Origin: an uncultured Spartobacteria bacterium
GTDB taxonomy: Bacteria > Verrucomicrobiota > Verrucomicrobiia > Chthoniobacterales > Chthoniobacteraceae
Direction: 5' to 3'
Assembly (NCBI GenBank): GCA_903901425.1
Contig: CAIURC010000195.1
Coordinates: 1 to 64,000 of the forward strand
DNA length: 64,000 nt
Positions 1 through 62,928 of this stretch are shown piece by piece. Each line of letters starts with the position of its first letter. Position 1 is the stretch's first letter. The notes beneath the pieces were generated by a model. That model was not told the DNA's origin. It searched no databases and saw nothing but the letters and a program-made list of their open reading frames with translations. The translations under genes and the position numbers were made by a program.

Positions 1-3000
1 CACGTTCAGCCCGTTTACCCGGCCAACGTTCGCAATCTCACCCGCCAAGCCCCCCCCCGAAATCCGCAGTTCCACCGGCACAAGATCCGGCACGGTATCC
101 GTGACAACGCTGTTCACAGGCCGCTCCGGCCCGAACACCCCGTACGGATTCGCCGGCACCGGCACTGTCCGGGTCGGCACACCCGGCGCCACGTACTTCG
201 ATCCCACCAGCTCCACCGTAATCCCCTCTGGCCACCCCGCCGCATACGGCGCCGCCAGCCCGGCAGGACGGTACCATTCCAGCTCCGGCGCGGACACATC
301 GCTAGCCGCCTGCTGGTCGTCGAACCCGACCGTTCCATTCACAAATCCGCGGTTCCCGTACAGGTGCAGGTACAGGGGCAGCGTCCCGTCCGGGGCAAGC
401 CGGTTGCTGTAACTCACGGTCGTGCCGTCCGCCAGCACGCCGGTCAGCGTCACCGTGCCCGCAGGCGCCACCGTCATCCGCGCGTAACCCGCCGCCTGCG
501 GATACCCGGTCCGGGCAAGGCCACGGTTCGTCTCCAGGCCCTCATCCACGAGCGGTTCGAAAAGCACCGTGTATTTCCCGTTCTCAGACGCCGGATCCAG
601 GATGTCCACGGGCACACGTTCCATCCCGGCGGGAAGCACTCTGGCCGCACTGTACACCGCCTTCTGAGCCTCCACCGTGGCCAGTTCCACCGTTCCGTCC
701 GCAAAAGACAACTCGCCCACCAGCAGCGCCGGATCCCCCTCGCGCACCCGCAACGACAGCGACCCGAGCTCTGTTGCCACACGGCCCACCATTTTCCGCA
801 CCGCAAACCGCGCCTGTTTCCCGTCAAAAAGCACCGAGCCATCCCGCATCACCATCCCCTTGAACCCGGCCACCACGCCGCCCGTGCTGAGTTTGCCACT
901 CACCGCCCCACCCGCCGACACCGTGGCCGTCAACAGCCCACGTCCACGGCTCACCCCGAACGCCTCCGCGATTCCGGGCGACAACGGGTATCCCTCCACC
1001 AGCTCCGCCACGGTCGTCTCCGGCCGCAGCAGGCCGTCGTACGTCCCGGCGAACTCCGGACGGACATGCGAAAACTTGAACACCCGCACCAGCTCCGTCG
1101 AAGCGTTCCCGCGCGCATCCCAGGCCCGGATTTTGAGCGTGTTCGATCCCTGTTCCGGCACCAGCGCCAGCATCCAGCCCACTGTGTTCCCGCCCGCCGG
1201 TGACGCCAGTTCCGCCTCCTCCGCCGGGCCGTCGTTCAGCTTCACCTCCACACGCGCCACCTCGCTCGTGTCCGTCGCCGTCCCCTTCACCAACACGCTT
1301 CCGCCACTCACCGTCACCCCTGAGCCGGGCGATTCCACCGCCAGCACCGGCCCCGAGGTGTCTGAACCCAAAAGTTTCACCGTCACCACCGAAGTCCGGC
1401 CGATCAGCACCCCGCCCGACGCAGCCTGCAGCTTCAGCACCACCGTCTCGCCCAGGGCCCCGAGTTGCGCCCCCTCGGGAATCCGGAGTTCAAAGCTCTT
1501 CGCCCCCAGTTCGCCGTCCCCCCAGCCCAGCGCCACCGCCTCCTCCGGCAGCGTGTAATCCTCTCCCAAAACCGCGGTGCCGCCCGCGACCGCCACCTGC
1601 ACCCCCACCGGGCCCGCACCTCCCAGAATCCTTTGCACCGTGATGGGCACCACCGTGTCGCCCTCCACGGCCTTTGCCGCCTGCACCGACGCCGAGCCGA
1701 ACACCACCGTCCCGGGCAACGCAACAGGACGCACCGTCACCGTGCTCGACAGGATCCCGCCCGGCAGTGCCCCACCCGAAAGGTTCTGGAGCCGGAACTG
1801 CAGCGTCTTGCCCGACACGGGCACCGCCGCCCCCGCTTTGAACAAAACAGGCACACTCTTTTCCCCGGAATCGCCGTCCGCCCATTCCAGCACCACGGGC
1901 CGGTCGACCACGTAATCGGTGGCCAGGGCCGTTCCACCCGAAACCGCTACCTCCGCCCGGACCGCCCCCGAGGTTCCATGGAGCCGGCGCACCACCAGTT
2001 CCACCGAAAGATCGCCCGTGTCCGGCTTTACCCGCTCCAGCGAGGCCGCCCCGAACTGCAGCACGCCCGGGTTCCGCGCCGTCAGCGCCACGGTCGTCGT
2101 CCCGGTTCCGCCCAGCTGCGCGCCGACGGGATCCTGCAGGGTCAGCCGCAGGGTTTCGCCCGCCTCGGCCACGGTGCGTCCCGCCCGCAGCACCACCACA
2201 AACGTCTTCTCCGACAGGTCGCCCGACGCCCAGCGCAGCACCGGCGAGTCGGGCAGGGAATAATCCCCGGGCTGCAGCGTGTCCGAGGACGCCGCCACCC
2301 GCACCTCCACCGCCTTCGCACCGTCCGCAAGACGCTGCACGGTGACCGGCACCAGCAGTTCGCCCGGCCCCTTGGCGCCCGGATACACGGACGAACCGAA
2401 ACCGACCCGGGCCGCCTCTGGCACCTCCAGAACTGCAGCCGCGCTTACCACGCTCCCCGCGGCATTCGTCACCACCACGCTGTAGCTACCCACATCCGAG
2501 TCCGCCACGGAAGCAATCGCATGAGTGGGTCCTGTAGCTCCAGCGATGTCTACCCCACCCTTCCGCCACTGGTAACTGAGCGGACCCGTCCCCGTTGCCG
2601 TCACGCTGAAACTCACCGGGGAACCGGGAAGCACCAAGGCTCCCACGGGCTGCGAGGTGATCGCAGGCGCAGCCGTCAACGCCGCGCCGTTGCTCACCAC
2701 CGATCCCACCACGTTCGTCACCACACACGTGTATGTCCCCGAATGGCCGGGGGTCACCGACCCGATTGAATAGGTTGTCGAGGTCGACCCCGCAATGTTC
2801 ACTCCGTCCAATCTCCACTGGTAGCTCAATGTGCCCGTCCCCGTCGCCGCCACCGCAAAACTCACCCCCGCCCCTTGCAGCACTCCTCGGCTCAAAGGCT
2901 GCGCCGTAATCACCACCGGGTCGTTCACCGACAGCACCGCCCCCGCACTCGACACCGAACCCAGCGCATTCGACACCACCACCGAGTAAATCCCCTCGTC

Positions 3001-5376
3001 CCCCTCCGCCGCGGCGGCAATCGTATAGCTGGACCCGGTTGCACCGGGGATGTCCGTGGGCCCCTTGCGCCATCGGTACGTAACCGGACCTGTCCCGGTA
3101 GCCAACACGCTGAAACTTGCCGATGCACCCGGGTTCACCGTCCGGTTCACGGGTTGCACCGTGATCCCGGCCGGGTCATTCACGCTTAGAACCGCAGTCA
3201 CACTGGTCGTGCTCCCATCCACACTCGTCACCACCACCGAATACCCGCCCTCGTCTGATTCCGTCACCGCAGCAATCGTGTACGTCGAACCCGTTGCGCC
3301 TGGGATCACCACGCCCCCCTTGCGCCACTGGTAGGTCAGAGCGCCGCTGCCCACCGCCGCCACGCTGAAACTCGCCGTGCCCCCAGGATTCAATGTCACA
3401 CTGGAGGGCTGCGAGGTGATCGTCACCGGGTCGTTCACGCTCAAAAAAGCCGCGGCACTGACCACGCTGGAAGCGATGTTCGTCACCAGCACCGAGTATT
3501 CCCCCTCGTCTGCCTCCACCGCCGAAGAAACCGTGTACGTCGCCCCGGTAGCACCCACGATCGCCACCGAGCCCTTCCGCCACTGGTAACTGAACGGCCC
3601 CGTGCCCGTCGCCGTCACGCTGAAGGTCGCCAGTTCGCCGGGATTGACCGTCGCACCCAGCGGCTGCGCCGTGATGACCACCGGATCGTTCACACTCAGC
3701 ACGGCAACGGAACTCGTCACGGTCCCCGCTAGGTTACTGACCACCACATCGTAACTCCCCTCGTGCGATTCCGTCACCGGGTTCATCGTGTACGTTGAAT
3801 TTGTGGCGCCCGGAACCGCCACCCCGTTCCGACGCCACTGGTAACTAGAAGGGGAACCCGTCACACCCACGCCCAAGGTCACCGGGGTGCCGGGGTTGAC
3901 CGTCGAGCCCACGGGCTGCGAGGTGATTACGGGGGCAACCGTCAACACCGCGCCGTCGCTCACCACTGTTCCCACCACGTTCGTCACCGCGCAGGTGTAG
4001 GTCCCGGAGTGGACTGGTGTCACCGACCCGATCGAATAGGTTGCCGAGGTCGCCCCGGTGATGTTCACGCCATCCTGCCGCCACTGGTAGCTCAGCGTGC
4101 CCGTCCCGGTGGCCGTGACGCTGAAACTGGCAGAGCCCCCCTGCAGAAAGGCACGGGCCGCCGGTTGCGCCGTGATCACCACGGGGTTGTTCACATTCAA
4201 CACCACCGCGGAACTTGTCACGGTCCCCGCCAGGTTGCTGACCACCACGTCGTAACTCCCCTCATCCGACTCCGTCACCGGGTTCATCGTGTACGTTGAA
4301 CTCGTCGCACCCGGAACCGCCACTCCGTTCCGACGCCACTGGTAGAGTGGTGACGAACCAGTGGCCGTCACGCTCATACTCACCACGGTGCCGGGATTCA
4401 CCGTGGACCCCACGGGCTGCGAGGTGATCACCACAGGATCATTCACACTCAGCACCACCGTAGAACTCGTCACACTCCCCAGACTGTTGGATACCACCAC
4501 ATCGTAGCTGCCCTCATGCGACTCCGCCACCGGATTGATCGTGTACGTAGCACCCGTCGCACCAGATATATTCACCCCACCCTTCCGCCACTGATAATTC
4601 AACGGAAAACCCGCAGCCGTTACACTCAAACTTGCCGAATTCCCTGGATTCACCGTCGCATCCACAGGCTGCACCGTAATCGTCGCGCCAACCGTCAGCA
4701 CGGCACCGGTCGAAACCACTGTTCCCACCACATTCGTCACCGCGCACACGTACGTCCCGCCATGGGTGCCGCTCACCGAATCAATCGAGTATGTGGCCAC
4801 CGTGGCTCCACTGATGTTCGTCCCGTTCAGCCTCCATTGGTAACTCACCGGACCTGTCCCAGTCGCCATCACACTGAAATTCACACCCGCACCCTGCAAC
4901 ACCCCCTGACTCACCGGTTGTGCCGTAATCACCACAGGATCATTCACACTCAGCACCACCATAGAACTCGTTACACTCCCGAGGCTGTTGGATACCACCA
5001 CGTCATAATTTCCTTCGTGCGCCTCCACGACAGAATTGATTGTGTACGTGGCACCCGTGGCACCAGACACCGCAACCCCGTTCCGACGCCACTGGTAATT
5101 CAGCGACGATCCGGTAGCCGTCACACTCAAATTCACCAACGTCCCCGCATTCACCGTCGCACCCACAGGCTGCGCTGTGATCACCACAGGATCCCGGCTA
5201 TCCACCACCGTGTCTGTGGAATCCGCACTCACAATCGCGGCAACCACTGGCCCCGCGCTCAAGCACAGAGTCGCGAAAACCGCCATCCACGTCAGAAATC
5301 TTCGGCTATGGTTCAAAAACGATATACGCTCCGTCCAAACCGCTCCGCTCTCCTCTGCTGTGCTCAGGCCTCTCAT
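1..5376 (-). CDS. Giant secreted protein with 11 Ig-like repeats and Calx-beta-like domains (3' end beyond window)
   Basis: I translated this frame by hand; it stays open for 1792 codons from an ATG at 5376 to the left edge with no stop. The ATG overlaps the stop of the upstream gene as ATGA, which suggests translational coupling. Order seen: an N-terminal stretch with a hydrophobic signal segment (about residues 28-50); 11 Ig-like domains of about 83 residues (roughly 5195-2410), each with a core like YQWR and a DxGxYxVVVSN strand; three Calx-beta-like units (about 2420-1370, with motifs such as DGDxxEK); one bacterial Ig-type domain (about 1365-1080); then a domain starting GTYDGLLRP near 1060. 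Such proteins are usually exported and work as adhesins or surface layers; the exact role is inferred. The C-terminus, where a sorting or anchor signal would lie, is outside the window. Coding and frame are certain; function is open. Confidence 0.9.
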   Translation of the reverse strand, partial: MRGLSTAEESGAVWTERISFLNHSRRFLTWMAVFATLCLSAGPVVAAIVSADSTDTVVDSRDPVVITAQPVGATVNAGTLVNLSVTATGSSLNYQWRRNGVAVSGATGATYTINSVVEAHEGNYDVVVSNSLGSVTSSMVVLSVNDPVVITAQPVSQGVLQGAGVNFSVMATGTGPVSYQWRLNGTNISGATVATYSIDSVSGTHGGTYVCAVTNVVGTVVSTGAVLTVGATITVQPVDATVNPGNSASLSVTAAGFPLNYQWRKGGVNISGATGATYTINPVAESHEGSYDVVVSNSLGSVTSSTVVLSVNDPVVITSQPVGSTVNPGTVVSMSVTATGSSPLYQWRRNGVAVPGATSSTYTMNPVTESDEGSYDVVVSNLAGTVTSSAVVLNVNNPVVITAQPAARAFLQGGSASFSVTATGTGTLSYQWRQDGVNITGATSATYSIGSVTPVHSGTYTCAVTNVVGTVVSDGAVLTVAPVITSQPVGSTVNPGTPVTLGVGVTGSPSSYQWRRNGVAVPGATNSTYTMNPVTESHEGSYDVVVSNLAGTVTSSVAVLSVNDPVVITAQPLGATVNPGELATFSVTATGTGPFSYQWRKGSVAIVGATGATYTVSSAVEADEGEYSVLVTNIASSVVSAAAFLSVNDPVTITSQPSSVTLNPGGTASFSVAAVGSGALTYQWRKGGVVIPGATGSTYTIAAVTESDEGGYSVVVTSVDGSTTSVTAVLSVNDPAGITVQPVNRTVNPGASASFSVLATGTGPVTYRWRKGPTDIPGATGSSYTIAAAAEGDEGIYSVVVSNALGSVSSAGAVLSVNDPVVITAQPLSRGVLQGAGVSFAVAATGTGTLSYQWRLDGVNIAGSTSTTYSIGSVTPGHSGTYTCVVTNVVGSVVSNGAALTAAPAITSQPVGALVLPGSPVSFSVTATGTGPLSYQWRKGGVDIAGATGPTHAIASVADSDVGSYSVVVTNAAGSVVSAAAVLEVPEAARVGFGSSVYPGAKGPGELLVPVTVQRLADGAKAVEVRVAASSDTLQPGDYSLPDSPVLRWASGDLSEKTFVVVLRAGRTVAEAGETLRLTLQDPVGAQLGGTGTTTVALTARNPGVLQFGAASLERVKPDTGDLSVELVVRRLHGTSGAVRAEVAVSGGTALATDYVVDRPVVLEWADGDSGEKSVPVLFKAGAAVPVSGKTLQFRLQNLSGGALPGGILSSTVTVRPVALPGTVVFGSASVQAAKAVEGDTVVPITVQRILGGAGPVGVQVAVAGGTAVLGEDYTLPEEAVALGWGDGELGAKSFELRIPEGAQLGALGETVVLKLQAASGGVLIGRTSVVTVKLLGSDTSGPVLAVESPGSGVTVSGGSVLVKGTATDTSEVARVEVKLNDGPAEEAELASPAGGNTVGWMLALVPEQGSNTLKIRAWDARGNASTELVRVFKFSHVRPEFAGTYDGLLRPETTVAELVEGYPLSPGIAEAFGVSRGRGLLTATVSAGGAVSGKLSTGGVVAGFKGMVMRDGSVLFDGKQARFAVRKMVGRVATELGSLSLRVREGDPALLVGELSFADGTVELATVEAQKAVYSAARVLPAGMERVPVDILDPASENGKYTVLFEPLVDEGLETNRGLARTGYPQAAGYARMTVAPAGTVTLTGVLADGTTVSYSNRLAPDGTLPLYLHLYGNRGFVNGTVGFDDQQAASDVSAPELEWYRPAGLAAPYAAGWPEGITVELVGSKYVAPGVPTRTVPVPANPYGVFGPERPVNSVVTDTVPDLVPVELRISGGGLAGEIANVGRVNGLNV

Positions 5377-6461
5377 GGAACTGAACTCAGAGCCAGCCGG
5401 AACCCCACGTTGAAGCCGGGGTAGGCCGGGTCGGGGTAGTCGTCCAGGTACCCCACCAAGCAGGCGTCCGCGAGGCTGTACCAGCCCCCGCCACGGATCA
5501 CCCGGGGCGGCAGCCAGTAGATACCAAAGCACCACTCCCACACGTTGCCGCTCATGTCGTAAGTCCCCAGCTCATTCGCTGCCTTCGTTCCCACCACATG
5601 CGTTGCAGAGCCAGAGTTGTCGTAATACCACGCCACCGCATTCACATCATTGCTCCCGCTGTGCGCGTACCCATGAGTCTGTGTCCCACCACGCGCAGCC
5701 CATTCCCACTCCTTCTCGCTCGGCAACCGGTACCCGTTCGCCGCCCCATTCACCACAGGAACCCGATCTCCAGTCCGATACACAGCCCCATTGGACAGCT
5801 TGTACACAGGCGTCTTCCCCTCCTTCTGACTACGCGCGTTGCACCACTTCACCGCCTGATACCAAGTCACATCTATCACGGGATAATTGCTCCCACTCCC
5901 CGCACCCACACTCCCAATGTCATACCCATTGGACGCTGCCCACGTACGTACCGTCTGAAACTCACCCCACTGCACCTCATACTTCCCAATATAAAACGTG
6001 CTCACAGACAATGCTCCCAACGGGGATGTAGATGGCAGTGTGCCTCCATCCACCTTGATAAACGGTTCCTCCACCGACACCCGGAAGCGCGTCTGCGTCG
6101 AATACTGCCCGTTCCAATCCACACCTGCATCCCAAGTGATTCGAAGGTTCCTTCCAGGTGTCACTGAGTCTCCCACCGCGCCCGTGGCCGAAGTCACAGG
6201 TACATTCCACGTCGCCCCTCCATCCGGCGACACCTGCAAACCGACCGCGAGCGACATAGTCGCCCCCGCCACATCGTAATCGATATCGACCAACTTTGTC
6301 CCGGCACGCTGGGCCGCGCGCACGTTGCTTATGGTTATCTCCGATGATGCAGACCCCGTTAGGATTAAAAACAAACCACTGAAAACAAGAAGAAAACAAT
6401 TCCAGCAGGAAGCTCCTGCTTTCCCTCCAAGACTTTGATTTAGGTGTGAGGCGGCAAACAT
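5373..6461 (-). CDS. Secreted SUMF1/formylglycine-generating-enzyme-fold protein
   Basis: 362 residues. Residues 15-40 are a hydrophobic signal peptide. An N-terminal beta-rich stretch (about 40-135, with VDIDYDV and a DGGATWN motif) precedes a SUMF1-type domain: FYIGKYEVQWGEF, VIDVTWYQAVKWCNARS, YRLPSEKEWEWAARGG, DMSGNVWEW, RVIRGGGW and a closing NVGFRLA. True formylglycine-generating enzymes carry a cysteine pair near the C-terminus. Here the segment between RGGGW and GFRLA has only one cysteine, so a structural or carbohydrate/protein-binding role is more likely than sulfatase activation (inference). It lies 5 bases after the TIR-like gene and overlaps the giant Ig-repeat gene by ATGA, so the three probably form one transcript. 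Confidence 0.9.
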   Translation of the reverse strand: MFAASHLNQSLGGKAGASCWNCFLLVFSGLFLILTGSASSEITISNVRAAQRAGTKLVDIDYDVAGATMSLAVGLQVSPDGGATWNVPVTSATGAVGDSVTPGRNLRITWDAGVDWNGQYSTQTRFRVSVEEPFIKVDGGTLPSTSPLGALSVSTFYIGKYEVQWGEFQTVRTWAASNGYDIGSVGAGSGSNYPVIDVTWYQAVKWCNARSQKEGKTPVYKLSNGAVYRTGDRVPVVNGAANGYRLPSEKEWEWAARGGTQTHGYAHSGSNDVNAVAWYYDNSGSATHVVGTKAANELGTYDMSGNVWEWCFGIYWLPPRVIRGGGWYSLADACLVGYLDDYPDPAYPGFNVGFRLALSSVP

Positions 6462-18032: not shown

Positions 18033-18244
18033 GCAGAGAGGATTTCATCCCGAACAAAGTGCAGACGGATCATCCGGGGTGCCTCCGCTTCAACCCCAAA
18101 ATGACAGCGCACGGCATCCCTCACCATTTCACGAAGTTCCGCCACCGACTCCCCCTGGGTGGCAATCGCGTGACCCATTGCCACAGCCACATAGCCCCCG
18201 TCCACCTCGTCTTCGCGCACCTCAAAGATGATCTCGCTCACCAA
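18029..18244 (-). CDS. HicB-like antitoxin
   Basis: 71 residues: SEIIFEVREDEVDGGYVAVAMGH, then IATQGESVAELREMVRDAVRCHF, then PRMIRLHFVRDEILS. This is the partial-RNase-H HicB fold of short antitoxins, a family often misnamed as a 2-oxoisovalerate dehydrogenase subunit in databases. It lies directly upstream of the frameshifted hicA with a 4-base overlap. HicB neutralises HicA and usually represses the operon; no DNA-binding tail is visible here. Confidence 0.85.
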   Translation of the reverse strand: MVSEIIFEVREDEVDGGYVAVAMGHAIATQGESVAELREMVRDAVRCHFGVEAEAPRMIRLHFVRDEILSA

Positions 18245-18419
18245 GGCACTATCCCCCCCGGAAACCTGCCCTTCAAGCCCCGGAGTTGATTCTCCCTCAC
18301 GGATCGCCTCCGTGACTCCGATGATCCGGACCGCGCAGACCGGGCTTGACCCGGCTCGGTTTCATCGCTTTGACGGGGCTACGGTGCGAAGTCTTCCCCA
18401 CCGTGCAGAATTTCCCCGC

Positions 18420-19859
18420 ATGCGGCTTTTCATTCGATTCACTTTGCGACTGGTCTGGGCACTGGCTCTGATCTCGGCAGGCCTGCATGCCGCGCCTGCC
18501 CCCAAAACCAGCACCCGCAACGCACTGATCATTGGAAACGCCCGGTACGAACCTTCCGTTGGGCCGCTCCGGAATACGCGGAACGATGCCAAAGCCATCG
18601 CCAAGGCGCTCCGAGAACTCGGCTTCTCCGTGATCGAAAAACACGACATCACCCGGGACCAGCTTCTGAAGGCCATCTTGGAATTCAGATCCACCCTTGC
18701 AGGGGCCGAAGTCGCCCTCTTCTATTTCGCCGGACACGGAATTTCGGTGGGCGGCTCCAACTATCTGGTTTCTCTGAAATCGGGTTACACCCCAGAAGGA
18801 GCGGACGATGCCACGCTCCGGATGCTGGCCGAAACCCGGCTACTGAACGTGGAACAACCGCTGGCCGACATGGTGAGCGCGGGAGCCCGCTGCAACATCA
18901 TGATTCTGGACGCCTGCCGGACCACCGCACTCGCGCGCGTCGGCAGGACCCGGGACCTTCAGAATCCGGGCGGCCTTTCCGAGATGCGACCGCCGGCCGG
19001 GTCCTTGGTTGCGTTTGCGACCGACGCCGGCCAGACGGCGCTCGACGGAGACGGCACCAACGGTCTCTACACCGAGGAACTCCTCAAACACCTCCGGACC
19101 CCTGGGATCACCATCGAACAGGTTTTCAAACGCACGCGGGCGGGGGTTCTGGAACGCTCTGAGGGAAGCCAGATCCCCGCGGAGTACTCGCGTCTGGTCG
19201 GGGACGACATTTTTCTTGCCGGAACTAGCACGGACTCCCCGGAGCCCCAGACTGCCGCACTGGCGCCCACCCGACGCGCTACTCCTGTTCCACGTCCGGC
19301 GGATCCTCCGCCGGGGCCACTGCCCTCGATCAGAGAAATTCTTGGCTACGCGGGTTTGGGAAAAGCGCGGGAATGCACGGAAGCGCTGCGCACACTTGCC
19401 GGAACCACCGGGGCAGGAAACTACGCGGTGGCACCGCTGGAAGTTCTGCTTGAAAAGGTCAAAGCGGACCTCAAAGACCCGAGCGGATCCACCATCAAAC
19501 CGGCGCTTGCTGCAAGCACCTGCACGTTGGTCTTGGAAAGTCTGGACGCGTGTCTTCCACCGGACAGCCAGAATAAGATCCAACTCAGGGCGCGGGCGCT
19601 GAACCGCCGGGGCGACGCGTTGCTGCTGCTCGGGCAACCCGAGGAAGCGTTGCACGACTTTGATTCCGCGATCCCGCTGCAACCGGAAGACTCCTACATC
19701 CTCTACAACCGCGGCCGCGCCTATCTCGCATTGGGCCGCACCGAAGAGGCGCGCGCAGACTTCACTGCGGCGGCGAATCCAAAATGGAAACAGCCCGGGG
19801 CGCTCAAACTTGCCACCCAAGCCCTCTCGGGATTGAAGGAATCGGCATTGAAACCGTGA
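18420..19859 (+). CDS. Secreted caspase-fold (peptidase C14) protein with TPR tail
   Basis: 479 residues from the ATG at 18420, which places a signal peptide (residues 4-24) at the N-terminus; the frame is open further upstream. The caspase-like domain (about 33-275) has ALIIGNARYE, the catalytic His in YFAGHG (His106) and the catalytic Cys in ILDACR (Cys166). A Pro-rich linker follows. The last ~110 residues form two TPR-like repeats (RRGDALLLLGQPEEALHDFD and a YNRGRAYLALGRTEEARADF-type unit). Family members are Arg/Lys-specific metacaspase-like proteases or inactive scaffolds; here both catalytic residues are present. Confidence 0.9.
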   Translation: MRLFIRFTLRLVWALALISAGLHAAPAPKTSTRNALIIGNARYEPSVGPLRNTRNDAKAIAKALRELGFSVIEKHDITRDQLLKAILEFRSTLAGAEVALFYFAGHGISVGGSNYLVSLKSGYTPEGADDATLRMLAETRLLNVEQPLADMVSAGARCNIMILDACRTTALARVGRTRDLQNPGGLSEMRPPAGSLVAFATDAGQTALDGDGTNGLYTEELLKHLRTPGITIEQVFKRTRAGVLERSEGSQIPAEYSRLVGDDIFLAGTSTDSPEPQTAALAPTRRATPVPRPADPPPGPLPSIREILGYAGLGKARECTEALRTLAGTTGAGNYAVAPLEVLLEKVKADLKDPSGSTIKPALAASTCTLVLESLDACLPPDSQNKIQLRARALNRRGDALLLLGQPEEALHDFDSAIPLQPEDSYILYNRGRAYLALGRTEEARADFTAAANPKWKQPGALKLATQALSGLKESALKP

Positions 19860-20770: not shown

Positions 20771-21232
20771 CTAGCCCCCCCGGACCACGAGCAGGAGCAC
20801 CAGCACCTGACCCTTGGCGTGCATCGGCCCCCGGATAAAGAGCGGGCTGCCCAACCCCAGAACCGCATCGGTCTCGATCAGGGGCCGTTTGTCGTGAAAA
20901 AGCTCGAGGGACAGACGGTAGCGCTGTTCCTGGGCGCGGCGGGCATTGACCCGGAGCCAGAAATGGTCGGTGGGAACCATCCAGTTCTCGACCTGCTCGT
21001 CCATAAGCTGAGTGGCGGCTCCGAGGATCTCAAACTGGTTGTAATTCAGGACCCGCTGAAGCCGGCCACACGCCTCCCCAAGCGGTCCGGGAAGCGGCTT
21101 GGGGTGGTCCACATTCGAAGCGAGTAGGACTGCGGTCAGGACGCGTTCCTCGGCCTTGAGATGCGCGCCTGCACAGAAGAGGGCCCCGAGCACCAAAAGC
21201 CAGCTTACCAGTGTTTGCTTAGCGCAACGCAT
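20771..21232 (-). CDS. Secreted protein of unknown function, last gene of the sigma-factor operon
   Basis: 153 residues from the ATG at 21232, giving a signal peptide MRCAKQTLVSWLLVLGALFCAGA; an upstream ATG at 21253 would add seven residues. The rest is a small mixed domain with no family I recognise (segments VLNYNQFEILGAATQLM and HFWLRVNAR) and a hydrophobic C-terminal strand. It overlaps the anti-sigma gene by 14 bases, so it is probably co-transcribed with the ECF sigma factor. Confidence 0.8.
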   Translation of the reverse strand: MRCAKQTLVSWLLVLGALFCAGAHLKAEERVLTAVLLASNVDHPKPLPGPLGEACGRLQRVLNYNQFEILGAATQLMDEQVENWMVPTDHFWLRVNARRAQEQRYRLSLELFHDKRPLIETDAVLGLGSPLFIRGPMHAKGQVLVLLLVVRGG

Positions 21233-21713
21233 AGCTCTCCGGCAGGTAATCAAGGCCGTCGATCCAGATCAGGGTCACTTCTTCTCCGGAGGTGGATACG
21301 GGCTCAGCCCAGAGGCTGGGATCTGCCACCCGCACCGACTTGACCTCCGCCCAGTAAGAACCCTGCACCGGGTGCGGCTTGGGAATGAGCGTTTGGTAAA
21401 GCCCGGCCGCCACCGCAAGGCACCCCACCCCGGCCCAGACCAGCCAGCGGAGCCGCCAGGGAACGGTCCTCCGCTCCCGGACGGATTCCATCCGGTCGAG
21501 GATCTGTTGGTTGAACACCTCGGGAAACTCGAGTTCCGGTGCCGAGGCATGACGTTTGAGAGCTGCGCTCAGGCTCTTGAAGACGGTGCGCTCTTTTTCA
21601 GCGGCTGCCAGTCCACCCTCGCGGCGTTGAAGTTCGCGTTCGAACTCCTCCAACTCCCGGCCCGCCAGTTGTCCGTCCATCCATGCGGTGAATTTTTCCT
21701 CAAAGGCTTTCAT
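21219..21713 (-). CDS. Membrane-bound anti-sigma factor (putative)
   Basis: 164 residues. The N-terminus (1-60) is acidic and helical, with a FTAWMDGQLAGRELEEFERE segment typical of short anti-sigma domains. One membrane segment lies at about 86-106 (LRWLVWAGVGCLAVAAGLY) and a short extracytoplasmic part follows. It overlaps the sigma gene upstream by 14 bases and the secreted protein downstream by 14. No zinc HxxxCxxC motif is visible, so assignment rests on position, size and topology. Confidence 0.75.
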   Translation of the reverse strand: MKAFEEKFTAWMDGQLAGRELEEFERELQRREGGLAAAEKERTVFKSLSAALKRHASAPELEFPEVFNQQILDRMESVRERRTVPWRLRWLVWAGVGCLAVAAGLYQTLIPKPHPVQGSYWAEVKSVRVADPSLWAEPVSTSGEEVTLIWIDGLDYLPESYALR

Positions 21714-22305
21714 AAACGTCTTTCAACAGGGTCTGCAGTTTTTTCCGGGCGTAAAAGAGCCGCGACATGACAGTTCCGAGCGACGCCCCGGTGCGGGTGG
21801 CGATTTCCTGGTATTCCAGGCCTTGAATTTCCCGGAGAACAATCACCACCCGGTGTTCCTCCGAGAGCTTGCCTAGGGCCTCATCCATTCTGACCCTGAG
21901 TTCCTGATCGGAGAGCCGCTCCGACGGCCCCAACTCGGCGCGGGGCACCGTCAAAGCGCCGGGCTCCACCCCTGAGATGCCCCGGGAATCGTCAAACTCC
22001 CCGACCTGGCTTCCGCGCCGGCGCCGGAGCCAGTCAATGGCCACGTTGCTGAGGATCCGGTGCAGCCAGGTGCCAAACGCACTTTCTCCCCGGAACCTGC
22101 CCATGGACTTCCACGCCTTGAGAAACCCCTCCTGGGCAAGGTCCCATGCGTCCTGTTCGTCCCTGACTATCTGGTAGATCATGGCAAACGCCCTCTGACG
22201 GTGCCGGGTGACCAGGCGGTTGAACGCCTCCCGATCCCCGTCCTGGCACAACCGGACAAGCGCAAGGTCTTCCTCCGCTGCAGCAGCCTGGTTCTGTTCG
22301 GACAA
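21700..22305 (-). CDS. ECF sigma-70 factor, RpoE-like
   Basis: 201 residues. Region 2: DREAFNRLVTRHRQRAFAMI, then DEQDAWDLAQEGFLKAWKSM and the FGTWLHRILSNVAIDWLRRRR core-binding/-10 recognition part. Region 4: SEEHRVVIVLREIQGLEYQEIA, then TGASLGTVMSRLFYARKKL, the -35 helix-turn-helix. A ~45-residue linker joins the two. First gene of a three-gene operon with its presumed anti-sigma factor. Confidence 0.95.
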   Translation of the reverse strand: MSEQNQAAAAEEDLALVRLCQDGDREAFNRLVTRHRQRAFAMIYQIVRDEQDAWDLAQEGFLKAWKSMGRFRGESAFGTWLHRILSNVAIDWLRRRRGSQVGEFDDSRGISGVEPGALTVPRAELGPSERLSDQELRVRMDEALGKLSEEHRVVIVLREIQGLEYQEIATRTGASLGTVMSRLFYARKKLQTLLKDVYESL

Positions 22306-23079: not shown

Positions 23080-24159
23080 CTATCCGCCGCTCACCGGGAG
23101 ACTCTGGCGACGCAACTGCCCGCAGGCCGCCGCGATGTCGTGCCCCTTTTCCCGACGGAGCGTCGCGGGAACGCCCGCACGTTCGAGGATGGACAGGAAC
23201 AACTCCTGGCGCGCCTCGGAGGGCCGTTTCCATTCGAGGCCGTCGACCTGGTTGTACGGGATGCAGTTCACCTTGGCCCCCACCTGGCGGGAAACACGGA
23301 CCAGCGCCGCGGCATCCTGTTCCCGGTCGTTGACCCCCTCGATCAGGATGTATTCAAAGGTGATCCGCTGTTTTTTCCGGCCGACGTAGTACTCACAGGC
23401 CTCCAGGAGTTGCTGGAGAGGATACTTCCGGTTGACGGGCATGATCTGCTGGCGGACCTCGTCGGTGGCTCCGTGCAGCGAGATCGCCAGACGCACCTGA
23501 AGCGGTTGCTCGGCCAGAAGCCGGATCTGGGGCGCCAGCCCGCTCGTGGAGATCGTGATCCGGCGCGCCCCAATCCCCACCCCCCACGGCGCATTCAAAA
23601 TCTCGATGGCTCGCATCAGGTTCGCATAGTTGGCAAGCGGTTCCCCCATCCCCATGAACACCAGGTTGCTCACCCGTTCCCCGCAGAGTTCCTCCACCCG
23701 CAACACCTGGCTCACGATCTCGCCCGCATTCAGGTTCCGGCTGAACCCGTCCAAACCGCTGGCGCAGAACTTGCACCCGTAGGCGCAACCCACCTGCGTG
23801 GAAACACAGAGGGTCCGACGATCCGAACTCTCCCCGTACAAGGCCGGAGAGGCCGGAATCAGCACCGTTTCAATCAGGCTTCCGTCCCCGAGCCGGAAAA
23901 GGTACTTGCGCGTCGTGTCCTCCGAACCAAGCACCCGGAGGGATTCCAGCGCCCCGAACTGGTAGCGTTCCTCGAGACTGCGCCGGAACCCTGCCGGCAG
24001 ATCGGTCATGGCATCGAAAGAATTCACCCGCCGCTGGTACAGCCACCGGGCCACCTGCTCAGCGCGGTACCCGGGTTGCCCCAGCTCGCGCATGGCCTCC
24101 CCGAGTTCCTCCAAAAAAAGGGAGTGGATCGGCAACTTGTCTGTGGGTCCGGGCACCAT
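23080..24159 (-). CDS. rlmN: Dual-specificity 23S rRNA/tRNA adenine-C2 methyltransferase RlmN
   Basis: 359 residues from the ATG at 24159; the open frame goes further upstream but without similarity. Radical-SAM motif CAYGCKFC (Cys125, 129, 132) binds the [4Fe-4S] cluster. The two methyl-transfer cysteines are in RRTLCVSTQVGC (Cys118) and DIAAACGQL (about residue 345). FMGMGEPLANY and ISLHGATDEVR are family hallmarks. The enzyme methylates C2 of A2503 in 23S rRNA and A37 in some tRNAs. It follows the L,D-transpeptidase gene by 76 bases. Confidence 0.95.
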   Translation of the reverse strand: MVPGPTDKLPIHSLFLEELGEAMRELGQPGYRAEQVARWLYQRRVNSFDAMTDLPAGFRRSLEERYQFGALESLRVLGSEDTTRKYLFRLGDGSLIETVLIPASPALYGESSDRRTLCVSTQVGCAYGCKFCASGLDGFSRNLNAGEIVSQVLRVEELCGERVSNLVFMGMGEPLANYANLMRAIEILNAPWGVGIGARRITISTSGLAPQIRLLAEQPLQVRLAISLHGATDEVRQQIMPVNRKYPLQQLLEACEYYVGRKKQRITFEYILIEGVNDREQDAAALVRVSRQVGAKVNCIPYNQVDGLEWKRPSEARQELFLSILERAGVPATLRREKGHDIAAACGQLRRQSLPVSGG

Positions 24160-24235: not shown

Positions 24236-25687
24236 TCAATCCCGGATCCGGACAAAAGTCCCCAAGGGCAGTTCCCCAAAAAACCGTTTGGCCACCTCCG
24301 AGGGCAACCGGATGCAGCCGTGCGAGGCAAACGGCGCATCGGTGATCCCCGAATGCATCCCAAACTCCCTGAAGTTCAGCCGGAGAAAGTACGGCATGGG
24401 CTGCTTGTAAATCGTGGAAAGATGTTCCATGTGCTTGTCGGTCACGACAAACTCCCCCTTCGGAGTCGGAAAACCCGGCCGGCCCGTGGACACCGTGGTC
24501 CGAAAAACCGATTTGCCGTCCCGGAAAAGTTCCGCCCTTTGGGCTGAGATCGAGATCTCCACGCGCAATACCTCGGGTTTCGGCGCCCCCGCAAACAGGA
24601 CATGCAGGGTCCGCCAGTCTTGGACGCAGGAGGCAAAATGAAGCGGCTCCACCCGGATTTTCCCACGGGTCAACCCCTTGCGCTTGGCTCCCAACCCGAG
24701 AAGCAGTTCCACCTCCTCCGACCATCCCAGCCCGGCTGCCAGCATGATCAGGTTCACCCCGGACGCATTTTCCGCATACTGGCGGACGCCGCCCGAAGGC
24801 AGCCGGGCCAGAAACTCCGCCCCCACCGGCTCCAGCAGTTCCTGGTTCGGATCCGCGCCGCACTCCAGCAAAAGCCTGAGCACGGGCCGGTTCCGTTCCG
24901 CCAGCGCACAGTGCGTCAACGGCTGCCCCCAGACCGGCGACACCGGCACTGCCGCATGGCGGCCGAGCAAAAAACGGACCCGGCTTTTCTCGCCATCCGC
25001 CATGGCCCGCAACAACGCCTCCATGGCCAGCGGCCGCCAGTTCTCCTGAATGGGCACCCCCTCCAAAACCGCATCCAGCACTGGCGCTCCGCCCCGTTCG
25101 AGCGCGTGATCGAGAAGATCCATCCCCTCGCAGCAGGGTTCCATGCAGTTCCTGGTCCGACCAATCAGACGCTGGACCATGCCCGTGTCCTGGCCCAGCA
25201 CGGCGTAGTGAAGCGGGCTGTGCTCCCCGTCGTCCCTCACCTGAGGGTCTGCGCCCGCATCCAAGAGACGGTCCACCCAATCGCCGCGCCGCTGAACCAC
25301 CGCCGCTAGCAGCAGGCCGCGGCCCCGGGCGTCCAGCACGTCGGTTTTCGCGCCCAGCTTGAGCAACCGGTCCACCAGCGGCCAGTCCCCCGCCGCTGCA
25401 GCCAGAAGAACCGGGGTGCGCCCCTGGTCGTCCCGTGCCTCGAGCCCGGCACCGGCTTTTAAAAAAAGGTCCACCAATTCGCCCGCACCGGTACCCGTGA
25501 GCCGGAGCAACTCCTCTGCCGTCACCTCAAACCCCAGCCTCTCCAAAACCCAGCGCGCCTCCTGTCCCTCGGCAGCCACACGCTCAGCCCCAGCGCACCG
25601 AATGCCCCCGGCCAAAAGCGCCAGCGCCAGGATCGGTATCCCGATCCAGCGGCGTATCTGCATCCTGATGTTCCCAATCAAGCTCAT
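24236..25687 (-). CDS. Ankyrin-repeat L,D-transpeptidase (YkuD domain)
   Basis: 483 residues from the ATG at 25687, which overlaps the upstream stop as ATGA. Signal peptide about 9-31 (IRRWIGIPILALALLAGG). Ankyrin-like repeats fill about 65-340 (units like ARDDQGRTPVLLAAAAGDWPLVDRLL and DDGEHSPLHYAV). The C-terminal ~110 residues are a YkuD domain with FGMHSGI (His) and SHGCIRLPSEVAK (catalytic Cys). Such enzymes make 3-3 peptidoglycan crosslinks or attach proteins to peptidoglycan. An ankyrin array before YkuD is an uncommon architecture; it may bind a partner in the periplasm (inference). Confidence 0.92.
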   Translation of the reverse strand: MSLIGNIRMQIRRWIGIPILALALLAGGIRCAGAERVAAEGQEARWVLERLGFEVTAEELLRLTGTGAGELVDLFLKAGAGLEARDDQGRTPVLLAAAAGDWPLVDRLLKLGAKTDVLDARGRGLLLAAVVQRRGDWVDRLLDAGADPQVRDDGEHSPLHYAVLGQDTGMVQRLIGRTRNCMEPCCEGMDLLDHALERGGAPVLDAVLEGVPIQENWRPLAMEALLRAMADGEKSRVRFLLGRHAAVPVSPVWGQPLTHCALAERNRPVLRLLLECGADPNQELLEPVGAEFLARLPSGGVRQYAENASGVNLIMLAAGLGWSEEVELLLGLGAKRKGLTRGKIRVEPLHFASCVQDWRTLHVLFAGAPKPEVLRVEISISAQRAELFRDGKSVFRTTVSTGRPGFPTPKGEFVVTDKHMEHLSTIYKQPMPYFLRLNFREFGMHSGITDAPFASHGCIRLPSEVAKRFFGELPLGTFVRIRD

Positions 25688-26715
25688 TCCCCGTTCCAGA
25701 CCGCCAGAGGCTCCACCAAGTTGCCCGGCAGGGGCCAGACCCGCTGCTGGACCCGGGGCGCAATCCGGTCCGCGGTTCCGTACCCGACCCGCATCATCTC
25801 CAGCTTGGCATCCAGGTTGTCCACGTAATGCAATGCCCAAGCCTCCGGCGTCTTCGGAGGCACGGGCGACCCGAACTGCAACTCCCCGTGGTGAGCGGCA
25901 ATCAGGTGCAGCAGGTGGAGGCGGACATCCTCACTTGCAGGCTCAAGTTTCTCCCAGTCCGCCGCGGTCTCGCTCCCCAACAAACGCCGCCACAACTGGT
26001 TGACCAGTTCGATCCCAATTGAAATGTGCCCAAGAAGTTCGCCCCGCTCATCAAACGGCATCTGAAAACCGTCTGCGGGCAACCCGTTCTCCCAGAGCTT
26101 TCCGCAGTCGTGAAAAAGCACACCGGCCAGAAGAAGGTCCCGGTTCAACCGCGCGTCCACCGACGCCACCGCCCCGGCCAGACGCAACATCTGCGCCACG
26201 TGCTCCACCAGTCCCCCGCGCCGCGCATGATGGTTGCTCCGGGCCGCTGCCGCCCGCCGGAACCGGTCCCCGAACTCCCGGAGAAAAAACTCGGACAAGC
26301 CCCGGAGCCGGGGATCCCGGATGCCCGCCACGGTTTCCCGGATCGACTCGAACTCCCGGTCTTGGAATGCCCGGACCTCCGGCGGACCGGCAAGGAGCGC
26401 TGCGCGTTCCTCAGAATTTAGCTCACGCAGGTTCCAGCGTTTGGCGTCGATGCCGAAAGCCGGGGACGCAGCGAACTCCCCCTGCACCTCGATAAACGCG
26501 CCGGCCGCCAACTGCCGGCAGGCCGCGTAGGCGGGACCATCGCTCCACGCACAGAGCTTGAGCCGGTCGGCTCCGTCCACCAAGTGCAACTCAAAATAAG
26601 GTTTGCCGTCCCGGGTGGTCTTGGAGGCGTTCGATTCGACCTGCACATGCAGGAGCGCTTCGATCCGGCCCCCGGATACTGCCTGCCTGAGTGTTGTGAT
26701 GGTCTGCGTCTCCAC
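25684..26715 (-). CDS. OB-fold plus HD-domain protein, YhaM-like 3'-5' exoribonuclease
   Basis: 343 residues. The N-terminal OB-like domain (about 10-105) includes TRDGKPYFELHLVDGADRLKL. The HD domain has the metal ligands in HHARRGGLVEHVAQML, LFHDCGK and a later HLIAAHHGELQFG, ending with ALHYVDNLDAKLEMM, the same order as YhaM. YhaM degrades RNA and single-stranded DNA 3' to 5' using Mn2+ or Co2+. It is the first gene of a two-gene unit with the L,D-transpeptidase. Confidence 0.87.
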   Translation of the reverse strand: METQTITTLRQAVSGGRIEALLHVQVESNASKTTRDGKPYFELHLVDGADRLKLCAWSDGPAYAACRQLAAGAFIEVQGEFAASPAFGIDAKRWNLRELNSEERAALLAGPPEVRAFQDREFESIRETVAGIRDPRLRGLSEFFLREFGDRFRRAAAARSNHHARRGGLVEHVAQMLRLAGAVASVDARLNRDLLLAGVLFHDCGKLWENGLPADGFQMPFDERGELLGHISIGIELVNQLWRRLLGSETAADWEKLEPASEDVRLHLLHLIAAHHGELQFGSPVPPKTPEAWALHYVDNLDAKLEMMRVGYGTADRIAPRVQQRVWPLPGNLVEPLAVWNGE

Positions 26716-26862: not shown

Positions 26863-26916
26863 CAGTCCATCCAGTCCATCCAGTCCATCCAGTCCAGCCA
26901 GTCCATCCAGTCCAGC
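26863..26916. repeat. Intergenic tandem repeat, 9-base unit
   Basis: Six head-to-tail copies of cagtccatc; two (26890-26898 and 26908-26916) read cagtccagc. They lie in the divergent space between the YhaM-like and 2-hydroxyacid dehydrogenase genes. A 9-base unit keeps frame, but no supported gene covers it. Confidence 0.9.
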
Positions 26917-27062
26917 CACTTCAAAATGCCTAGCGCTTCAAAAGCCACGCTCCAGTGAACAAACTTCTGCCAACTGTGCCAGGCCACCGGCTCCTGCCAT
27001 CCCCCCCCTCGGGGCCTTGGGAACCCGTACCCGCCCCGGGGGGGCGCTCTCGGGGCAGCCCC

Positions 27063-61809: not shown

Positions 61810-62928
61810 ATGCGCAGACTCGCTTTTCTAATTCTGGTTTCTCCACTGATCGCAGCCGGTCCTTTGCTCGCTCAGGAGAGTGCAAATCCCAACTCGACTG
61901 CTCAGAAAAAGAAAACCACGCCTGCATCAGAGCCCGCTCGCACGCCCGCGCCGAGTCCTGCGAATGCAAAACCGCCCCAGCAAGACCCGGCATCGGTGAC
62001 TCCCTCCACCGAAGAAGCTGCTCCGGTGGAAAAGCGCCGCGGTCTTCTTAGTCTCTTCCGGAGGCGTACAGCTCCAGCCCAAGAGAATCCGGAAGCTGCT
62101 CTCCCGCAACCCACGCCTGCTGCGGCTCCTGGAGTCAGCGCTCCGAAGGCCACTCCGACTCCGAAGGCCACTCCGACTCCGAAGGCCACGCCCACTCCGA
62201 AGGCCACGCCCACTCCGAAGGCCACGCCCACTCCGAAGGCCACGCCCACTCCGAAAGCCGCGCCGACTCCGAAAGCCGCGCCGACTCCGAAGCCGACACC
62301 CACTCCGAAACCAGCGCCAGCAGCGAAGGCCGCGGACCAAACCCCGGTGGAACAGGGGCAGACAGCGACTCAGAAAACTTCCCCGCGTGATCAGGCTTCT
62401 CAAAAGCCTGCCCCCTCTGCAGATGGCCTTGTGGAAACCATTTCGCCCGCACCTGAGCAATCTCCCAAAAAACGCGGCTTCTTCGGGTGGCTATTCTCCT
62501 CAAAACCCAAGCCCACTCCTGTTCCGGCGACGCCCACGCCGATGCCCACGCCGATGCCTGCGAAGAAGGTTTCTACGGAACCCAAAAAACTGGAGCAACC
62601 GGTCCAGCGTCCGGCGACTGAGCAGGAGCCCAAGCCGCGGAAAACTCAGCCCACTCCCAAACCGGTGGCGAAAAAGTCCGTGAAATCTGTCGAGGACGAT
62701 GCCGCAGAGAAGGAGCGTTTCAACACTGCCAAGAGAAAGGCGATTGAGGTTGAGAGAATCCGCGAACTGAAAGCAGTCGCTGACAACGCCATGGGTGAAG
62801 ATGAAGGCCGAAAGGCGCTTCGGACCTACAACAAGGCGCTCTACGAGGAAATGCGCAAGATCGATCCAGAAATTACGGACCGGATCAACCAAATTGAGGC
62901 GGCCATCATGCGACGCCTCGCGGACTAA
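61810..62928 (+). CDS. Secreted Pro/Thr/Lys-repeat protein with helical C-terminus
   Basis: 372 residues from the ATG at 61810; the frame is open upstream across the alr promoter region. Signal peptide 2-22 (RRLAFLILVSPLIAAGPLLAQ). Low-complexity middle with tandem ATPTPK hexapeptides (residues about 114-161) and further PTPKP and KKRGFFGWLFSS-type segments. The last ~90 residues (about 285-372) form a charged helical domain (ERFNTAKRKAIEVERIREL). It may be a wall-spanning or stalk protein; function unknown. Confidence 0.85.
   Translation: MRRLAFLILVSPLIAAGPLLAQESANPNSTAQKKKTTPASEPARTPAPSPANAKPPQQDPASVTPSTEEAAPVEKRRGLLSLFRRRTAPAQENPEAALPQPTPAAAPGVSAPKATPTPKATPTPKATPTPKATPTPKATPTPKATPTPKAAPTPKAAPTPKPTPTPKPAPAAKAADQTPVEQGQTATQKTSPRDQASQKPAPSADGLVETISPAPEQSPKKRGFFGWLFSSKPKPTPVPATPTPMPTPMPAKKVSTEPKKLEQPVQRPATEQEPKPRKTQPTPKPVAKKSVKSVEDDAAEKERFNTAKRKAIEVERIRELKAVADNAMGEDEGRKALRTYNKALYEEMRKIDPEITDRINQIEAAIMRRLAD
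62149..62292 (+). repeat. 18-base in-gene tandem repeat encoding ATPTPK
   Basis: Eight in-frame units of 18 bases: two gccactccgactccgaag, four of the gccacgcccactccga type, then two gccgcgccgactccga variants. The unit is a multiple of three, so copy-number change keeps frame. Confidence 0.93.

Follow-up and report, generated by a model that had tools for sequence, protein, structure and literature searches.

What does an ankyrin array do on an enzyme of the cell wall? The question is raised by a gene in a 64,000-nucleotide stretch of DNA from an uncultured Spartobacteria bacterium (contig CAIURC010000195.1 of assembly GCA_903901425.1, positions 1 to 64,000, hereafter the window), in which one open frame joins ankyrin repeats to a YkuD L,D-transpeptidase domain. 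The answer proposed here has parts of different strength. Judged from its sequence, the fusion protein is likely to be an exported L,D-transpeptidase. The weaker step, drawn by analogy, is that the enzyme is directed through binding of a protein by the array, and we consider it evenly balanced. The proposal as a whole, i.e., an exported envelope L,D-transpeptidase in which a partner held by the array would set the site of transfer, is in our judgement about as likely to be right as wrong. The gene and its parts are listed below, with the evidence for each in brackets.

24236..25687, minus strand: ankyrin-YkuD fusion gene, 483 amino acids (open frame and Pfam).
25586..25687, minus strand: signal-peptide-like segment, residues 1-34, with a possible internal ATG at residue 9 and a putative AGA/E cleavage site (by eye and hydrophobic-segment scan).
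24923..25519, minus strand: variable ankyrin array, residues 57-255, hairpins 1-6 (Pfam and model; occupancy 0.60-0.94 in 63 members).
24572..24922, minus strand: conserved ankyrin core, residues 256-372, hairpins 7-9 plus insert (occupancy 0.97-1.00 in 63 members; core model).
24752..24841, minus strand: insert of 30 residues (283-312) that separates hairpins 7 and 8 and contains helices (occupancy 1.00 in 63 members; model helices 290-293 and 300-307).
24239..24571, minus strand: YkuD L,D-transpeptidase domain, residues 373-483 (Pfam; VIA-align against 4xvo).
24353..24355, minus strand: codon of the catalytic-motif His445 (63/63 members).
24305..24325, minus strand: SHGCIRL motif, residues 455-461, with the nucleophile Cys458 (Cys in 63/63 members, His456 in 61/63).

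The coordinates 24236-25687 given by a first-pass annotation of the DNA were right, the frame running on the minus strand from an ATG at 25687 to a TGA at 24236-24238. Ank_2 was matched by Pfam in three stretches of the protein (E 1.3e-20; 74.2 bits against a cut-off of 27.3) and YkuD at residues 375-481 (E 9.5e-17; 62.4 bits against a curated cut-off of 23.4), both in the same frame, i.e., the ankyrin part is not free-standing. The YkuD domain, described as complete in that annotation, is indeed so but short-looped, since profile positions 3-146, 144 in number, are matched by 107 residues. The catalytic motif is intact and comprises His445, which by the YkuD motif would be its catalytic histidine, plus S455-H456-G457-C458-R460 (SHGCIR). 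No named curated NCBIfam subfamily reached its own cut-off for the fusion. Two adjacent cysteines were noticed in the middle repeats (NCMEPCC, residues 185-186, positions 25130-25135); the CC pair also occurs in the same-family relatives L013, L014, L016, L020, L023 and L024, and in an exported protein it is possibly a disulphide or a metal site.

The full-length AlphaFold2 model, built on a 22-row alignment, had a mean predicted local distance difference test score (pLDDT) of 92.3 and a predicted template modelling score (pTM) of 0.79. As read from its helices, nine hairpins at residues 57-364 are followed by the YkuD fold at 374-482, which makes the earlier estimate of about eight ankyrin units a fair one. 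The YkuD part was superposed by VIA-align on the L,D-transpeptidase 4xvo (Z 18.4, root-mean-square deviation 1.5, 113 residues aligned) and on LdtMt1, 4jmn (Z 18.1, 1.5 and 112, respectively). The repeats were nearest to DARPins, e.g., 6mof (Z 17.6, root-mean-square deviation 1.9, 160 aligned), which are designed ankyrin proteins and protein binders. Structure prediction, named beforehand as the check on whether another repeat fold would explain the units better, thus came out for ankyrin. A second model, restricted to residues 250-483 and based on 63 sequences, reached pLDDT 96.1 and pTM 0.90, and matched 4xvo with Z 19.8, root-mean-square deviation 1.4 and 114 aligned residues. We read that pTM as confidence in how the last repeats and YkuD are placed towards each other, and the last three repeats and YkuD are modelled as one unit. 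Among the matches listed for this core model by VIA-align and Foldseek there was no solved fold with an ankyrin-YkuD pair; those of VIA-align aligned at most 118 of the 234 residues, and those of Foldseek reached up to 174 columns including gaps, with template modelling scores of at most 0.46 by query length.

Sixty-three fusion proteins were aligned. Seven duplicates (L043-L045, L049, L052, L053 and L057; L numbers denote loci) were excluded, and L087 and L088, missed by the motif search, were added to the set after reading. Cys458, His445 and Arg460 were each kept in all 63 proteins and His456 in 61. Occupancy of residues 256-483 was 0.97-1.00 by region, a constancy that is partly a matter of selection, as the members were found by profiles over the core; in the first five repeats it was 0.60-0.80. 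The mean frequency of the top residue was 0.61 in YkuD, 0.47-0.50 in repeats 7-9 and 0.40 in the insert. From the alignment, the family looks like a fixed core of enzyme plus adaptor with a variable arm in front.

The same figures bear on an explanation by action in cis. The core would then belong to the enzyme, with repeats 7-9 plus the insert shaping or gating the active site or holding the peptide stem, and the outer repeats would only tune it. Such a role would suit the co-occurrence of core and YkuD, their modelling as one unit, the short loops of the YkuD domain and the fair conservation of repeats 7-9 relative to that domain. Short-looped YkuD proteins that lack ankyrins, as judged by eye, exist however in the same order (e.g., L034, L036 and L037), so the ankyrin repeats are not needed to compensate for the loop, and we regard action in cis as quite improbable.

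Concerning export, the N-terminus of the window protein, MQIRRWIGIPILALALLAGGIRCAGA/E, looks like a signal peptide, with two arginines, a hydrophobic run and an AGA/E site, as read by eye. A hydrophobic N-terminal segment was present in 62 of the 63 members, a figure biased upwards because the relatives' start codons were set by eye or by a script favouring such a segment; the same test was passed by 234 of 1260 internal 50-residue windows used as background. L065 was the member failing, and the pass of L084 means nothing as this locus is cut at a contig start. A lipobox-like motif was found by a loose pattern in 22 of the 63, with doubtful matches in L013, L020 and L022, where it falls within the hydrophobic core, and by eye also in L073, L077 and L080, which the pattern had overlooked. 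Members from other families carry LAGC, LTAC or LTGC directly after the hydrophobic run, and in genus g2 of the window's own family (L020, L022-L025) an apparent uncleaved anchor, again read by eye, is followed by a proline-rich linker. Most members thus seem to begin with a signal peptide, a membrane anchor or a lipobox. Hydrophobic segments, lipobox-like motifs and the g2 anchors together make an envelope location likely for the family, and the export signal proposed earlier is to that extent supported.

The distribution of the architecture, suggested in the first-pass annotation as a further check, showed that it recurs. In the order, 95 of 213 genomes gave a match at E <= 1e-45, with a single match in 93 of the 95, and in 89 genomes the match began no later than position 8 of the 233-position model; this same architecture in 89 genomes argues that the fusion is not a chance one. 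The other six matches began later, and one of them (G701) sits at a contig start. In the class, an ankyrin-through-YkuD profile match, defined as beginning at or before model position 246 of 438 with at least 229 bits, was found in 52 of 286 genomes and 12 families. Among the genomes of close relatives, 22 of 57 had a match spanning the ankyrin part through YkuD (beginning at or before query residue 305). A phylum-wide sample gave 22 matches in 387 genomes at E <= 1e-45, all from the same class, the number of the 387 that lie outside it being unstated. Genus g34 had only matches without most of the ankyrin part (20 genomes, beginning at position 267 or later). It was also a g34 genome that, among nine searched, best matched an Akkermansia YkuD protein (62% over 168 residues), which suggests to us that g34 corresponds to Akkermansia or a close relative and that the class is Verrucomicrobiia. 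A contig scan with the window protein returned one locus, L042, an Akkermansia ankyrin protein without YkuD; the peptide patterns of that scan were narrow and say little about other phyla. All members were found via core-spanning profiles, which would not pick up fusions of ankyrin and YkuD that are built differently.

In tblastn searches, none of the 26 matching plasmid records and none of the 5 matching phage records reached 80% cover, and a mobile origin was rejected on that count. The records also bear on whether the protein might be delivered to other cells, as an effector or toxin, instead of serving as an enzyme in the cell's own envelope. Ankyrin arrays do occur in secreted effectors, according to the accessible part of PMC3482391, and EAT6 is an antibacterial toxin of the L,D-transpeptidase type, according to that of PMC8213781. 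Delivery to other cells is nevertheless highly improbable for the fusion, given its order-wide spread with mostly one match per genome, the lipobox-like motifs that many members carry, the lack of near-full-length matches on the plasmid and phage records, and a gene neighbourhood in which, as described below, nothing but generic genes recurs across families.

The origin of the fusion was approached with a tree of the YkuD domain (63 fusion and 35 non-fusion rows, 112 columns). For the non-fusion set 44 loci were scanned and 42 gave a hit (L006 and L152 gave none); seven short hits (L001, L002, L003, L004, L005, L007 and L151) were dropped and 35 kept, most of which are the closest non-fusion matches and two of which (L036 and L146) are the same gene. 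On this tree 2 changes of the fusion label suffice, whereas the mean after shuffling was 28.9 and 0 of 500 shuffles were as low. This fits a single origin, although resolution is weak, with 45 of 94 inner branches left open and a program warning of long branches. The only non-fusion row nested among the fusions is L144 (3-708, plus strand, genome G205), which has ankyrin-like pieces upstream and would be either a frame-broken remnant of the fusion or an assembly error. L144 is also altered at the position of the catalytic His445. The source genome itself holds 11 YkuD matches and 6 matches to the penicillin-binding transpeptidase domain, and its 3 Ank_2 matches at E <= 0.001 all lie within the fusion frame, with no second Ank_2 gene. 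With 11 YkuD matches and a sole Ank_2 gene, the fusion appears as one specialised paralogue: by sequence it is one L,D-transpeptidase among many, in a genome that also has ordinary wall-synthesis genes and shows no ankyrin expansion.

The genes adjoining the fusion are the following.

25684..26715, minus strand: YhaM-like HD-domain gene, upstream (HD domain over the Pfam cut-off; NCBIfam NF010007 E 6.8e-37, below cut-off).
23080..24159, minus strand: rlmN, rRNA methyltransferase, downstream (TIGR00048 E 4.6e-122; start picked by us).

The stop of the YhaM-like gene overlaps the start codon of the fusion (ATGA). Open reading frames of 41 neighbourhoods, several of which end early at contig ends, were compared all-against-all and clustered by sequence only. 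Twelve clusters occurred in at least three of the neighbourhoods, among them the fusion, its antisense artefact, the YhaM-like gene and small clusters mostly of close kin. A cluster of ATP-binding cassette (ABC) ATPases, found at 8 loci from several families, was taken as generic. A cluster of extracytoplasmic function (ECF) sigma factors joined the window with two f8 genomes, some kilobases off. The YhaM-like gene was near the fusion in 4 of the 40 other neighbourhoods, all four from the family of the window (L091, L093 and L099, where it lies directly upstream, and L092, where it is about 1.2 kb off), and rlmN was near it in 0 of the 40. No conserved operon or partner gene was found in these neighbourhoods. 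Further features of the window were noted as follows.

18228-19859, plus strand: caspase-domain protein (Peptidase_C14 E 9.6e-36) with C-terminal tetratricopeptide repeats.
21219-22305, minus strand: ECF-type sigma factor, then a small protein whose N-terminus weakly resembles that of a zinc-finger anti-sigma factor (zf-HC2 below its cut-off, E 0.099).
1-5541, minus strand: open frame of at least 1847 amino acids that runs off the window, with repeated immunoglobulin-like units by eye.
62141-62333: tandem repeats of 18, 36 and 54 bases in an open frame, encoding Lys-Ala-Thr-Pro-Thr-Pro-like runs.
26863-26918: 9-base repeat in 6.2 copies, just upstream of the YhaM-like gene.

Several of these results weigh against the proposal of a partner-guided enzyme. 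In the 41 neighbourhoods nothing recurred across families except the generic ABC ATPases. Repeats 1-5 had a mean top-residue frequency of only 0.25-0.30 against 0.61 for YkuD. Protein length, on starts chosen by us, ranged from 254 to 679 amino acids, and short forms of 254-311 amino acids with few repeats, found in other families of the order, indicate that a long array is not required. The fusion is patchy in the window's own family, with none among the 12 genomes listed for genus g4. The motif histidine has been replaced in L087 and L088 (by Arg and Ala, respectively), which may be inactive members, and the presence of the core in every member is, as said, partly selected for. The poor conservation of the outer repeats suits a partner that differs between species, and it also suits a stiff spacer, by which a membrane-anchored catalytic domain would be carried to the peptidoglycan, its length tracking the gap between membrane and wall and no specific partner being involved. 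The variable length, the lack of any but generic recurrent neighbours and the anchor-like segment or lipobox in a good number of relatives agree with a spacer. On the other hand, a spacer would not need the degree of conservation seen in the core repeats and in the insert of 30 residues, the N-terminus of the window protein looks cleavable by eye rather than anchored, and ankyrins generally are binding modules. A spacer alone seems to us somewhat unlikely.

In the mechanism we favour, that of a partner-guided enzyme, the YkuD catalytic domain would lie in the envelope, rigidly joined to the last three ankyrin repeats. As in other YkuD enzymes, Cys458 would attack the bond between meso-diaminopimelic acid (mDAP) and D-Ala (mDAP3-D-Ala4) in the peptide stem that acts as donor, giving an acyl-enzyme at the third stem residue, and the acyl group would then be passed to an amine. 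This enzymatic step is proposed because of the YkuD family and the intact motif. A protein, a second stem (which would give a 3-3 bond) or some other amine could serve as the acceptor. The ankyrin core, which is likely part of the working unit of the enzyme, would present the active site. The outer array, of species-variable length, would reach from the membrane and hold a periplasmic protein partner, and the transfer would take place where this partner sits. An envelope protein is by analogy the most likely ligand of the outer array: ankyrins bind proteins, and Bd3460 of Bdellovibrio, compared below, sets a periplasmic precedent with a wall enzyme as its partner. The placement of 3-3 crosslinks by a protein partner, which the first reading of the sequence had suggested, is plausible as a hypothesis.

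An acceptor of the protein kind would change what the array is for: the enzyme would attach an outer-membrane protein or lipoprotein to peptidoglycan, not stem to stem, and the array would select that protein. Tethering of beta-barrels by L,D-transpeptidases is known, and an enzyme of this kind would have an obvious use for an arm that binds proteins. The neighbourhood comparison suggests no substrate protein, although none was specifically sought there, and protein attachment is in our view unlikely.

To our knowledge, it is poorly understood how L,D-transpeptidases reach their sites and substrates in the envelope. A binding arm built into the enzyme would make this targeting testable, as the partner of the array should tell where the bond is made. 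The pairing is a conserved family within one bacterial class and offers a marker enzyme for its little-studied envelopes. Going further, we tentatively suggest, as a view that we hold with some doubt, that the class possesses ankyrin-guided L,D-transpeptidases which all go back to one ancient fusion. In them an adaptor of three repeats, the same throughout, and an arm that differs by species would recruit different envelope proteins, so that protein recognition would place crosslinks or protein-to-wall bonds, in bacteria where the tethering of wall to membrane is still poorly explained.

Among known systems, the nearest in context is the ankyrin protein Bd3460, which, according to the accessible part of PMC4686830, resides in the periplasm, where it binds peptidoglycan endopeptidases and blocks them. 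The premise of the first-pass annotation, that ankyrins are usually cytosolic, is in view of this protein too strong. Bd3460 is exported, as the fusion probably is, and both are ankyrin proteins connected with a cell-wall enzyme and have an extended non-standard loop inside the array; Bd3460 differs, as far as that part of the paper goes, in that it is a protein of its own, inhibiting DD-endopeptidases whose genes lie next to it or elsewhere, whereas the array of the fusion is a covalent part of an L,D-transpeptidase. No DD-endopeptidase gene of the Bd3460 type adjoins the fusion in the window, where its neighbours are the YhaM-like gene and rlmN. With the YkuD L,D-transpeptidases (PF03734; LdtMt1 and LdtFm) the fusion shares the fold, the H...SHGC motif and likely export, and the catalytic domain of E. 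faecium, 3zg4, matched it in sequence (E 3.4e-10); unlike LdtMt1 and LdtFm, it has an ankyrin array joined to the catalytic domain, and that domain is shorter. The best-scoring named family for the YkuD part was PRK06132 (NF004785, E 4.9e-24), of which only positions 63-171 of 353 matched, and membership was rejected at 85.2 bits against a curated cut-off of 169. No account of a fusion of ankyrin with YkuD or a D-transpeptidase was found in the open-licence papers examined, including the accessible parts of PMC3482391, PMC12502724, PMC8213781 and PMC4686830. Both halves of the protein are known, and it is their conserved combination that appears new.
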